From: Flavobacterium silvisoli
GTDB lineage: Bacteria > Bacteroidota > Bacteroidia > Flavobacteriales > Flavobacteriaceae
Assembly (NCBI RefSeq): GCF_004329815.1
Contig: NZ_SJPE01000007.1
Location: 1-64,000 of the forward strand
Length of the DNA: 64,000 nt
Direction of reading: 5' to 3'
Both the position numbers and the translations under genes were made by a program. This document shows positions 27,589 to 49,810 of this stretch, piece by piece. Numbering within the stretch: the stretch's first letter is position 1; each line of letters begins with the position of its first letter. The notes beneath the pieces were generated by a model. It was not told the origin of the DNA and searched no databases. It saw nothing but the letters and a program-made list of their open reading frames with translations.

Positions 27589-28367
27589 TGTTTCACTGGG
27601 CAAAATCTTATCTCAACTTCCTTTGGCACTCCAAAAACGAACACGGAGTGCATTCGCCTTTCGTGTTTTCTTTAGTGACCAAATGTTTTTACGATAAAAA
27701 AAAGTATGCCGAATATGCTCTTTTAAAAAATTATCGCAATACGCTTTTACAAAACAAAAACACGATTGAAGTCACCGATTTCGGAGCCGGTTCGCGCGTT
27801 TTCAAAAGCAATAGCAGAGCCGTAAATCAAATAGCAAAGAACGCCGGTATATCAAAAAAAAGAGCCGAATTATTGTTCCGAATCACCAATTATTTCAAAC
27901 CCGAAAATATACTGGAGATAGGAACCTCACTAGGGCTAGCCTCTTCGGCACTTTCGTTAGCAAGTAAAAATGCTACCATAACCACGTTGGAAGGTTGCGA
28001 AAATACTATGACCGAAGCCAAAAAACAATTTAAAAAATTCGGTTTAAAAAACATTAATTCAATTCATACAGAATTTTCAAACTACCTAAAAAATTGTCAA
28101 TTGTCAATTGTCAATTATCAATTAATCTACTTTGACGGCAACCATTCCAAACAAGCCACTTTAGAATATTTCGAGTTACTTCTTCCAACCACAACCAACG
28201 ACTGCGTTTGGATTTTTGACGACATTCACTGGTCAGAAGACATGGAGGAAGCATGGGAGGCAATTAAAAAGCATCCATCCGTAACGGTAACTATCGATAC
28301 TTTTCAATGGGGATTGGTATTTTTCAGAAAAGAACAACCCAAAGAACATTTTGTAATCAGAATATAA
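27588..28367 (+). CDS. Class I SAM-dependent methyltransferase
   Basis: 259 residues. The SAM-binding motif I is [16 protein letters not shown] (~105-120), motif II is in [14 protein letters not shown], and [20 protein letters not shown] with [10 protein letters not shown] resembles the O-methyltransferase-type motif IV/VI region. Just before YFDGN lies [11 protein letters not shown], encoded by an array of 7-nt repeats (28095-28125) that appears to be an insertion. The gene is coupled to the ABC-F gene upstream. Substrate is unknown. Confidence 0.85.
28095..28125 (+). repeat. Heptad-period repeat inside a coding region
   Basis: Four tandem 7-nt units (TGTCAAT three times, then TATCAAT) followed by TA lie inside the methyltransferase gene. 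Seven is not a multiple of three, so the units are read in shifting frames, giving QLSIVNYQL. Similar arrays elsewhere in the window are intergenic. Confidence 0.85.
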
Positions 28368-29301: not shown

Positions 29302-29333
29302 ATTTCCTAATTCCTAATTCCTAATTCCTAATT
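29302..29333 (+). repeat. Heptad-period repeat in the leader of the adenosyltransferase gene
   Basis: Four copies of TTCCTAA followed by a diverged unit end about 6 bp before the ATG at 29339. The same unit appears five times at 47653-47690. Confidence 0.85.
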
Positions 29334-29338
29334 CACTC

Positions 29339-37471: not shown

Positions 37472-37552
37472 TAGCCCCGATGGGAGTGGCTACCGTGTAG
37501 CGCGGACAGCGGGAACAGGGTTTATTAAATAGCCCGGACCTTTCGCTCCTAG
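37472..37552 (-). repeat. Dispersed structured element, copy C
   Basis: On the minus strand it starts within the TAG stop codon of the MFS gene: TAGGAGCGAAAGGTCCGGG, then TGTTCCCGCTGTCCGCGC, hairpin GCTAC-ACG-GTAGC, CACTCCC and ATCGGGGCTA. Nearly identical to copy D at 47708 over the hairpin half. The GGAG and CTCC segments can also pair, which would overlap the CCCG/CGGG pairing (possible pseudoknot). Confidence 0.85.
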
Positions 37553-47609: not shown

Positions 47610-47652
47610 GTTTTTTTGGTTGATAGTTGGTGGTGGTTGGTTAATATCTTTA

Positions 47653-47690
47653 TTCCTAATTCCTAATTCCTAATTCCTAATTCCTAATTC
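47653..47690. repeat. Heptad-period repeat between the NtrC-type gene and panB
   Basis: Five tandem copies of TTCCTAA (plus strand) in the divergent gap, 40-80 bp upstream of the NtrC-type start. Identical unit to 29302-29333 and 14099-14118. Confidence 0.85.
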
Positions 47691-47873: not shown

Positions 47874-48692
47874 ATGTCAACTGCAAAAAAAGATTATAAA
47901 AGAATTACGACCAAGTCCTTATTTGACATGAAAGCCAACGGTGAGAAGATTTCGATGCTGACGGCTTATGATTATACTATGGCTAAAATTGTTGACTCGG
48001 CCGGAGTTGATGTGATTTTGGTGGGTGACTCGGCCAGTAATGTGATGGCAGGACACGAGACCACTTTACCGATTACATTGGACCAAATGATTTACCATGC
48101 TTCCTCTGTAGTAAGAGCGATTGACAGAGCTTTGGTCGTGGTGGATTTGCCGTTTGGAAGTTACCAATCGGACCCGAAAGAAGCTTTGCGCTCAGCCATC
48201 AGAATCATGAAAGAAAGCGGCGGACATGCGGTAAAACTGGAAGGCGGAAGTGAAATTAAAGAAAGTATCAAACGCATCCTGAACGCGGGAATTCCGGTTA
48301 TGGGTCATTTGGGTTTGACGCCACAATCGATTTACAAATTCGGAACCTATACAGTAAGAGCCAAAGAAGAAGCCGAAGCGGAAAAACTATTGGAAGATGC
48401 TAAATTATTAGAAAGAATTGGTTGTTTTGCCTTGGTATTGGAGAAAATCCCGGCGGCCTTGGCCGAGAGAGTGGCTAAGACCATTTCGATTCCGGTGATT
48501 GGCATTGGTGCCGGTGGCGGAGTGGACGGACAGGTTTTGGTGATTCACGATATGTTGGGCATGAACAACGAATTCAGTCCGAGATTTTTACGCCGTTACA
48601 TGAACTTGTACGAAGGAATGACCCAAGCTATCGGACAATATGTGGAGGATGTAAAATCGCAGGATTTCCCGAATAAGAATGAGCAGTATTAA
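47874..48692 (+). CDS. panB: 3-methyl-2-oxobutanoate hydroxymethyltransferase (ketopantoate hydroxymethyltransferase)
   Basis: 272 residues. PanB makes ketopantoate from 2-oxoisovalerate and methylene-THF, the first step to pantothenate and CoA. Motifs: [39 protein letters not shown] (metal Asp), [38 protein letters not shown] and [18 protein letters not shown] (catalytic Glu region). Length is normal. It is followed on the same strand by a four-helix-bundle gene and rluA-type gene with very short gaps. No other pantothenate gene is near. Confidence 0.96.
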
Positions 48693-48694
48693 TT

Positions 48695-48729
48695 CAGATT
48701 GTTAGATTTTTAGATTATCAGATTGTTAG
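48695..48729 (+). repeat. Left arm of the inverted repeat around the four-helix-bundle gene
   Basis: CAGATTGTTAGATTTTTAGA, then TTATCAGATTGTTAG. It contains the 12-mer CAGATTGTTAGA twice (48695-48706, 48719-48730). Its reverse complement resembles the right arm at 49084-49117. It begins 3 bp after the panB stop. Confidence 0.8.
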
Positions 48730-48733
48730 AAAT

Positions 48734-49087
48734 ATGCATAGATTTAAAGATTTAGAAATTTGGAAATTAAGTCGCTTGTTTTGCTCACAAATATATTCTG
48801 TAACAGCTCATTTCCCCGATAGTGAGAAATTCGGCTTAACAAATCAGTTAAGAAGAGCTTCCGTTTCTATTCCATCGAATATAGCTGAAGGCTGTTCGAG
48901 GATAAGCAACAAAGAATTCTCAAGATTTCTCGAAATTGCAATAGGTTCTGTTTATGAAATAGAAACACAGTTATTAATCGCTTTTGATTTGGGATACATC
49001 AATCAAATAGAGCTAGATAAATTAGTTCATGATTTGGACATCATTATCAAAATGACAACGAAATTCCGTTCCAGATTAATTGTCTGA
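48734..49087 (+). CDS. Four-helix-bundle protein (S23/IVS-encoded family)
   Basis: 117 residues, four amphipathic helices. It has the family pattern FKDLEIWKLSRLFCSQIYSV near the N-terminus, LTNQLRRASVSIPSNIAEGC in the middle (the most conserved segment), FSRFLEIAIGSVYEIETQLL, and a final helix KLVHDLDIIIKMTTKFRSRL. Members were first found in intervening sequences of 23S rRNA and occur as single genes in Bacteroidetes. The structure is a pentamer in solved relatives; no molecular role is settled. The gene is bracketed by inverted repeats and fills the panB-rluA gap. Confidence 0.92.
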   Translation: MHRFKDLEIWKLSRLFCSQIYSVTAHFPDSEKFGLTNQLRRASVSIPSNIAEGCSRISNKEFSRFLEIAIGSVYEIETQLLIAFDLGYINQIELDKLVHDLDIIIKMTTKFRSRLIV

Positions 49088-49117
49088 TAATCCAACAATC
49101 AAAAAATCCAACAATCG
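49084..49117 (+). repeat. Right arm of the inverted repeat around the four-helix-bundle gene
   Basis: CTGATAATCCAACAATCAAA, then AAATCCAACAATCG. Its reverse complement matches the left arm over ATTGTTrGATTTTT and GATTATCAG with an 8-nt insertion. It overlaps the stop codon of the four-helix-bundle gene and ends 3 bp before the TTG start of the next gene. Confidence 0.8.
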
Positions 49118-49120
49118 ATT

Positions 49121-49810
49121 TTGAAAATAGTCTCAACTAAAGAAAACCTACAGGTTCTTCACGAAGACAACCATATAATTGTGGTGAACAAGCGTGTCGG
49201 CGATATTGTACAAGGCGATAAAACCGGCGACAAACCCCTTTCTGAAGTGGTTAAGGAATACATCAAAGAAAAATACAACAAACCCGGAGAAGTATTTCTT
49301 GGAGTTGTTCATCGGCTGGACAGACCAACCACCGGAATAGTTGTTTTTGCCCGCACCAGTAAAGCTCTGACACGTTTAAACGAATTGTTCAGCAACAGAG
49401 AAACTAAAAAAACCTATTGGGCTGTAGTCAAGAATAAACCACCCAAAACAGAAGATACGCTTGTACATTATTTGAAACGCAACGAAAAAAACAATACTTC
49501 CAAAGCGCATTTGAAAGAAGTTCCCGGAAGTAAAAAAGCCAGTCTTGATTATACCATCATCAAAGAATTAGACCATTATTTCGCCTTAGAAATCAATCTG
49601 CACACCGGAAGGCACCATCAAATCAGAGCGCAACTAGCGGCTATTGGTTGTCCTATTAAAGGAGATTTAAAATATGGATTTGACCGCAGCAATCCTGATG
49701 GAGGGATTCATCTGCATGCACGGAAATTGGTATTTATCCACCCCGTCAACAAAGAAACTCTTGAAATTACGGCTCCCACACCAAAAGATGTTATTTGGAA
49801 TTTGATTTAA
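49121..49810 (+). CDS. RluA family pseudouridine synthase
   Basis: 229 residues, the catalytic domain only, without an S4 domain. The catalytic Asp is in VHRLDRPTTGIVVFAR (~Asp68). Other motifs are VLHEDNHIIVVNK, KTYWAVVKNKPPK and LHTGRHHQIRAQLAAIGCPI. The start is TTG 49121, giving MKIVSTKENLQVLHED, which fits the family N-terminus; no ATG occurs before the conserved part. Target (23S rRNA or tRNA uridine) cannot be told. The right inverted repeat abuts its start, so the element forms its 5' leader. Confidence 0.92.
   Translation: MKIVSTKENLQVLHEDNHIIVVNKRVGDIVQGDKTGDKPLSEVVKEYIKEKYNKPGEVFLGVVHRLDRPTTGIVVFARTSKALTRLNELFSNRETKKTYWAVVKNKPPKTEDTLVHYLKRNEKNNTSKAHLKEVPGSKKASLDYTIIKELDHYFALEINLHTGRHHQIRAQLAAIGCPIKGDLKYGFDRSNPDGGIHLHARKLVFIHPVNKETLEITAPTPKDVIWNLI

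Follow-up and report, generated by a model that had tools for sequence, protein, structure and literature searches.

An S23-type gene within inverted clade-specific repeat arrays between panB and rluA of Flavobacterium silvisoli: a candidate gene-plus-hairpin unit

RAYT genes are flanked by REPs, and the RAYT/REPIN system is the closest in layout to the locus reported here. According to PMC8049555, the RAYT genes are old and vertically inherited, and genomes that have the gene are richer in REPINs. The intervening sequences (IVS) in 23S rRNA, as in Leptospira and Coxiella, carry a gene of the S23/IVP protein family within stem-forming terminal inverted repeats and are suspected to be mobile. 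We know of no account of what their protein does or of how they move. The S23-type structure 2gsc is a ring of five bundles, as described in PMC4990558.

Short tandem heptamers provide a further parallel. The P6b repeats of the Nostoc tRNA-Leu intron, TDNGATT, reportedly described by Costa et al. in 2002, are 7-nt tandem units in a stem and may resemble the arms found here. The TAACTGA heptamers of Beggiatoaceae are likewise short 7-nt tandem units in intergenic positions, but PMC4679880 names no IVP gene with them, and neither "four helix" nor "23S" nor "intervening" occurs in its text.

The window analysed here is a stretch of 64,000 nt on contig C37 of the 2.89-Mb F. silvisoli genome (G000). 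In it, panB for ketopantoate hydroxymethyltransferase (47874–48692, plus strand; PF02548, E 1.9e-115; TIGR00222, E 4.6e-98) ends with its stop codon at 48690–48692, and a gene for an RluA-family pseudouridine synthase (49121–49810, plus strand; PF00849, E 4.7e-35) begins downstream with a TTG. The gap between them, 48693–49120, is 428 nt long, the same as the Coxiella IVS of 428 nt given in PMC4990558. It holds the IVP gene at 48734–49087 on the plus strand, encoding a four-helix-bundle protein of 117 aa (PF05635, E 4e-39; TIGR02436, E 4.7e-37), as the earlier note on this DNA had recognized.

The gene occupies the loop of a potential hairpin. Its 5′ arm at 48697–48733 on the plus strand is a period-8 array of T(T/C)AGATTN, which is the G-containing strand, and its 3′ arm at 49079–49116 is the inverted array, reading TTGGATTN / TTTGATTN in 8-nt units on the minus strand and overlapping the IVP stop codon. 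Both were found by repeat search and alignment, and the best ungapped arms (48697–48730 and 49083–49116, 34 nt each) are 79% complementary. The gene is thus bracketed by imperfect inverted arms as first noticed, with ends differing by 1–2 nt. The accompanying claim that the element fills the gap exactly needs a small correction, as it nearly does so, leaving 4 nt spare on each side instead of 3.

The arms are well above chance. As an arm score, we took the best local complementarity between 150 nt on either side of a gene, with a threshold of 28. The two gap ends here score 34, which none of 2000 dinucleotide shuffles reached (mean 15.1, maximum 28). In a scan of the window at 1714 evenly spaced positions with a step of 37, a score of 34 was reached once, at offset 48692, which is the element itself.

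Our preferred reading, to which we assign a probability of about one half, is that 48693–49120 represents a single gene-plus-arms unit of a kind with further copies, in which an Avd-like IVP gene lies within inverted arrays of a clade-specific repeat and may take part in the upkeep of the hairpin. The evidence for the unit, and the other readings of it, are weighed below.

The AlphaFold2 model of the window IVP has four helices with a mean pLDDT of 96.5 and matches the S23-type proteins 2gsc (TM 0.94) and 2rld. It also resembles Avd of the diversity-generating retroelements in fold, with TM 0.82/0.89 to 4dwl (Foldseek E 0.069) and TM 0.79 to chain D of the DGR RNP 8ube, but the identities are as low as 9% and 7%, respectively. 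To our knowledge, the IVP proteins have no nuclease or transposase motif or fold. The closest named IVP locus to that of the window, at 80%, is in F. psychroterrae.

The orthologues at the panB site are under purifying selection, with a median dN/dS of 0.12 (140 unsaturated of 190 pairs). This and the inheritance at the site described below are what an ordinary domesticated gene would show, beside short repeats that are prone to slippage and carry no meaning. We hold this explanation to be very improbable, being disfavoured by the counts: arms around IVP genes are far above controls, inverted and polar. Moreover, among 20 orthologous loci, arms fit the partner of their own locus better than a permuted one (means of 48.4 and 34.6, p 5e-5), although the own partner is the best in only 4 of the 20, the unit being common to these loci.

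The counts come from two sets. In the genus, the family was found in 19 of the 20 genomes searched, and of 114 matches the loci of 90 were examined, the 24 left out being mostly the weakest and including six from G062. An IVP ORF was present in 92 of 95 loci, and removal of an edge case and duplicates left 87 genes, two of them without a neighbour on one side. The named set from several phyla has 85 genes from 77 of 79 loci, four of them without a neighbour. Controls were ORFs of at least 100 aa from the same loci, and mismatched pairs were flanks of different IVP genes.

A score of at least 28 was reached by 59/87 IVP genes of the genus, against 22/574 control ORFs and 63/2000 mismatched flank pairs, and by 54/85 of the named set against 7/477 controls. 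In total, 113 of 172 IVP genes are armed, as compared with 29 of 1051 control ORFs. Among the highest-scoring controls are ORFs next to IVP genes as well as GxxExxY genes, themselves armed. Outside Bacteroidota, and going by record titles, armed named loci include those of Verrucomicrobia, Pirellula, Geothrix, Poribacteria and Ignavibacteriae. The other 59 of the 172 genes have no arms at this threshold, among them L217 (score 20) and L222 (19), which belong to the clade of the window IVP and are close relatives of it.

The arms have a common style. Of the 108 loci scoring at least 30, 92 have a periodic 5′ arm, with period 7 in 67, period 8 in 20, period 6 in 3 and period 9 in 2. Across the 108, the 5′ arm has more G than C in 89 and more C than G in 12. 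In G000, the window protein finds five IVP genes at E 0.001, while a sixth, partial one falls below this cut-off. Each of the five adjoins, by eye, inverted short-period repeats of its own unit. Four of them have arm scores of 34, 51, 46 and 26; the fifth, with an in-frame stop, was left out. At C12:108488–108799 of G000 (L005 / L138), an IVP gene with an in-frame TAA is flanked by AATTGATA-type arrays and is a decaying copy.

Other short arrays are scattered in the window. Upstream of panB, a tandem ATTCCTA array of period 7 lies at 47652–47690; read in reverse as GAATTAG, it is similar to the unit in the arms of L004, a further IVP gene of G000. Period-7 arrays also occur at 29304–29334 and 28092–28116 (ATTCCTA; AATTGTC). 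A dispersed sequence containing GGAGTGGCTACCGTGTAGCG has two copies in the window, at 37483 and 47719, and similar sequences adjoin TTAGATT arrays at two other G000 loci (L008 and L023).

The repeat unit tracks the protein clade. We compared all pairs of the 108 armed loci, defining different neighbourhoods as having no homologous ORF within 2.5 kb and unit sharing as an arm score of at least 24 in the same orientation, with the reversed orientation as control. Between different neighbourhoods, the unit was shared in 15/17 pairs of IVPs at least 70% identical (reversed 0), 15/43 at 60–70% (3), 11/77 at 55–60% (3), 32/410 at 50–55% (1), 69/1996 at 40–50% (9) and 56/2773 below 40% (18). These pairs are not independent, as one locus enters many of them and several of the 17 top pairs involve L218. 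A locus and its closest relative in another neighbourhood have a unit in common in 37 of 104 cases, where 3.8 are expected.

The window clade itself is found at several sites. Its TTAGATT/TTCGATT arms are at panB-rluA and also beside a menA-like gene in Aequorivita (L218). It recurs at another site in G033 (L388) with an arm score of 51 and in a second, kynureninase-arginase-like gap in G055 (L406, 32) and in G061 (L401, 23, below the threshold). G055 has two copies of the clade, one at panB-rluA (L316) and one in the second gap, both scoring 32. The proposal that gene and arms form one unit is upheld by these sites, at the sub-threshold one with the weaker arms.

In the second gap, the gene is absent from 16 of 20 loci and present in 3 of the 19 found by search plus L401, which was known beforehand. 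Two of its occupants, L408 and L429, encode IVPs 51–53% identical to the window's; the unit of L408 is akin to TTCAGATT, while that of L429 (53%) is quite different, GATAGAAAG / GATTGAAAG. The same gap in G000 holds a hairpin without the gene (L412). On sequence comparison, then, the arms match within a locus, and the unit has been passed on together with the protein clade, in neighbourhoods that are unrelated and in different phyla.

An alternative is that the arms belong to a separate family of hairpin repeats in operon gaps that is moved by other means, with IVP and GxxExxY genes trapped in them or employing them for termination or insulation. Gene-less hairpins are indeed common, GxxExxY genes have the same architecture, and several genomes, G004 for one, are rich in copies and lack the clade gene. 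We nevertheless regard this as unlikely: a separate family is hard to reconcile with a unit that follows the IVP clade, with its polarity unchanged, from one neighbourhood to others unrelated to it, or with the diverged L429 having a unit different from those of L401, L406 and L408 at one and the same gap.

Hairpins without the gene were searched for with a pattern of three units in tandem, which was found in 51 of 101 genus genomes. The pattern read backwards was disregarded as a control for the array counts, because TTAGATT reads the same backwards and the backwards pattern is therefore no valid null. Copies outside the panB gap occur in 18/20 genomes with the panB-site gene (median 12) against 27/66 without (median 0), with p of 9e-7 by the Mann-Whitney test and 9e-5 by Fisher's test. 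When G033 and G061, which carry the clade at other sites and have zero copies by this pattern, are counted as carriers, the figures become 18/22 (median 8) against 27/64 (median 0), with p of 2e-5 and 0.001.

Correction for the tree leaves 8 independent pairs, of which 4.4–4.7 go in the expected way and 0.1–0.2 in the opposite, and with these the link of copies to gene is not significant (median p 0.06–0.125). Copy-rich genomes without the clade gene are G004 (93), G008 (32), G038 (18), G095 (15), G007 (14) and G082 (14), as called at a cut-off of 1e-42 that matched 23 genomes and misses at least one true carrier, G081. Outside the 86 genomes compared at panB-rluA, those with at least 9 copies have the clade gene in two cases, G021 (31) and G039 (9), and lack it in two, G048 (16) and G014 (9).

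We inspected 28 gene-less loci, one per genome, leaving out a twenty-ninth inside an ORF. Between co-directional ORFs lie 24 of them; 13 have two arms, all with the TTAGA arm first, and 15 have one. The earlier note had named short-period arms found without the gene as something that would refute its proposal. This applies by half, as such copies are common but across genomes accompany the gene.

At panB-rluA itself, 68 genomes lacked a first locus; the addition of 60 of these gave 90 loci in all, four of which lack panB beside rluA. The gene is in the gap in 20 of the 86 genus genomes and absent from 66, so that the empty sites sought in relatives exist in number. Among the 66 gene-less gaps, 61 measure 1–238 nt and five 479–1450 nt. 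The occupied gaps reach an arm score of 28 in 17 of 20 cases. Gene-less gaps may still hold a hairpin, of the TTAGACTTCTTAGA unit in L300 and L313 (scores 27 and 30) and of a different unit in L051 and L297. As judged from these alignments, sites with and without the gene exist, and gene-less copies are dispersed in intergenic gaps, more so where the gene is kept.

In G062 (L056), arms of the TTAGACTTCTTAGA unit at panB-rluA surround a different sequence of about 1.1 kb, which appears to be coding, with no IVP. This arrangement also speaks for a separate hairpin family.

The history of the site was read from two trees. The first, built from the DNA of panB and rluA together, was used in place of a single-gene tree that was too weak; on it, gene presence takes no fewer than 12 changes, and well-supported branches force 8 of these. 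The second, of 184 IVP proteins, accounts for the 24 genes at the panB site with as few as 3 changes, as compared with a shuffled mean of 23.0, so the window copy is no recent arrival and the site is old and mostly inherited. Taken together, the gene is old at panB-rluA, with many losses or exchanges since. We saw no target-site duplication or exact junction in these species-level relatives, the gaps of which are too diverged to place one.

Hence, from the frequency of the arms, the clade-specific repeat and the gene-less sites, the gene and its arms behave as one unit. The results suggest a widespread, little-described kind of gene-plus-hairpin unit able to move.

The earlier note saw in this locus an IVS-type unit residing in an mRNA. 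At the RNA level, the arms would pair in the panB-rluA transcript, RNase III would cut the stem, and the IVP segment would be freed or excised. Such a reading draws on the protein family and the overall layout, which are as in the 23S IVS (PMC4990558), and on the predicted RNA fold, which is closed at the base by arm pairing with a z of −2.54, 2 of 100 shuffles being equally good.

Orientation bears on it too. In the genus, 71 of the 85 IVP genes with two neighbours have co-directional genes on both sides, and all but one of the 71 (70) are in sense, as are 67 of 69 in the named set. Control genes between co-directional neighbours are likewise in sense in 234 of 259 cases, against 137 of 140 for the pooled IVP genes (Fisher p 0.004). 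The sense excess is real but modest, and says little for an RNA-level IVS because the controls show it too. The difference is larger for having both neighbours in sense, with 70/85 IVP genes and 234/388 control genes.

If pairing of the sense RNA were selected, G.U mismatches should exceed A.C ones. In 114 loci at score 28, arm mismatches are G.U in 95 and A.C in 133 (p 0.014 in the opposite way), so selection at the RNA level is not supported. Together with the numerous hairpins without the gene and the intact 23S gene of G000, this makes the RNA-level reading unlikely. It is partly supported, by the arm pairing in the predicted fold and a weak sense excess; the G.U excess that should go with it did not appear.

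The search of the G000 23S rRNA for an insert came out negative, as the sole 23S gene found covers model positions 1–2925 in 2883 nt and leaves no space for one. The window element is not a 23S IVS, because its site is outside rRNA and the 23S gene of G000 has no insert. It differs from the 23S IVS by lying between protein genes, by clade-specific short tandem arms, by many gene-less copies and by having no sign of G.U selection.

The sites of IVP genes are short gaps such as panB-rluA, gmk-nadD and sdhA-sdhB. Except for panB and rluA, these gene names come from our reading of translated ORFs, and neighbours were taken from mechanically called ORFs. The gmk-nadD site is listed for F. columnare as well, in PMC5524665.

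Candidate enzymes for the movement were looked for by profile. G000 has no match to the Y1 transposase (PF01797) or to GxxExxY, and neither Y1 transposase nor RVT_1 is matched in G054, a genome of 67 arrays; hence none of the three is needed everywhere. As a general driver, the Y1 transposase was rejected, since no match was found in G000, G004, G054 or G081; some other array-rich genomes have one. Y1 transposase loci pass the arm threshold in 4 of 23 cases where the match is strong and in 4 of 7 where it is weak, and by eye they have classical palindromes.

RVT_1 was matched once each in G000, G009, G065 and G080 of the six genomes searched and in neither of the carriers G054 and G075. A reverse transcriptase as the partner of IVP is made unlikely by this absence, which is also a difference from Avd.

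The GxxExxY genes (TIGR04256) have no sequence kinship to IVP, and yet 24 of 30 loci (L156–L185) have inverted, mostly short-period arms; L179 was counted as a miss, another, longer ORF having been scored there. The arm style is thus not exclusive to IVP and is common to at least two small-protein families in the genus. Units seen at GxxExxY genes of the genus (L130, L142, L156–L185) are CGCAAAG, CCACAGATT, CATTAAG and ACATAG.

RAYT/REPIN remains the nearest parallel. Here too, a protein gene is flanked by its repeat and is old and vertically inherited, and dispersed gene-less hairpins are commoner in carriers of the gene, although the latter is not significant here after tree correction. In contrast to RAYT, the IVP is a four-helix bundle and no Y1 (HUH) tyrosine transposase, and the repeats are arrays of 7–8 nt units instead of single palindromes. 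The unit is not a RAYT system because of the missing Y1 transposase, and its defining features are common with both RAYT and IVS.

In the preferred reading of a gene-plus-arms unit, we infer the following mode of movement. An IVP ring would bind the hairpin that its own arms form, either in single-stranded DNA or in RNA. Enzymes of the host or others would, at a low rate, then place copies of this hairpin in further gaps, the gene being included or not. By analogy to the RAYT for REPINs, the IVP would thus maintain a small population of hairpins, and its gene might be retained at sites where it is transcribed in sense as part of an operon.

Several results count against the gene-plus-arms reading, namely the lack of a nuclease motif in IVP and of a target-site duplication, the copy-rich non-carriers, the loss of significance upon tree correction, the zero copies in G033 and G061, the 59 unarmed genes and the arms of GxxExxY genes. 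There is a fair likelihood that the unit constitutes a separate class. Among the matches listed for open-access full text, none describes IVP genes with such arms outside rRNA; a description may exist elsewhere.

A broader proposal, which we put forward tentatively and at somewhat less than even odds, is that an Avd-like ring protein with no known nuclease domain keeps populations of clade-specific 7–8 nt hairpins, as a REPIN-like class of mobile units across Bacteroidota and several other phyla, with the 23S IVS as a special case that settled in rRNA.

For the S23/IVP family, these results add a frequent partner outside rRNA in many genomes, a hairpin made of a clade-specific repeat. Being clade-specific, the hairpin makes the binding and the mobility of IVP directly testable. 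In Flavobacterium and relatives, the unit may account for part of the short-period hairpins in intergenic gaps.
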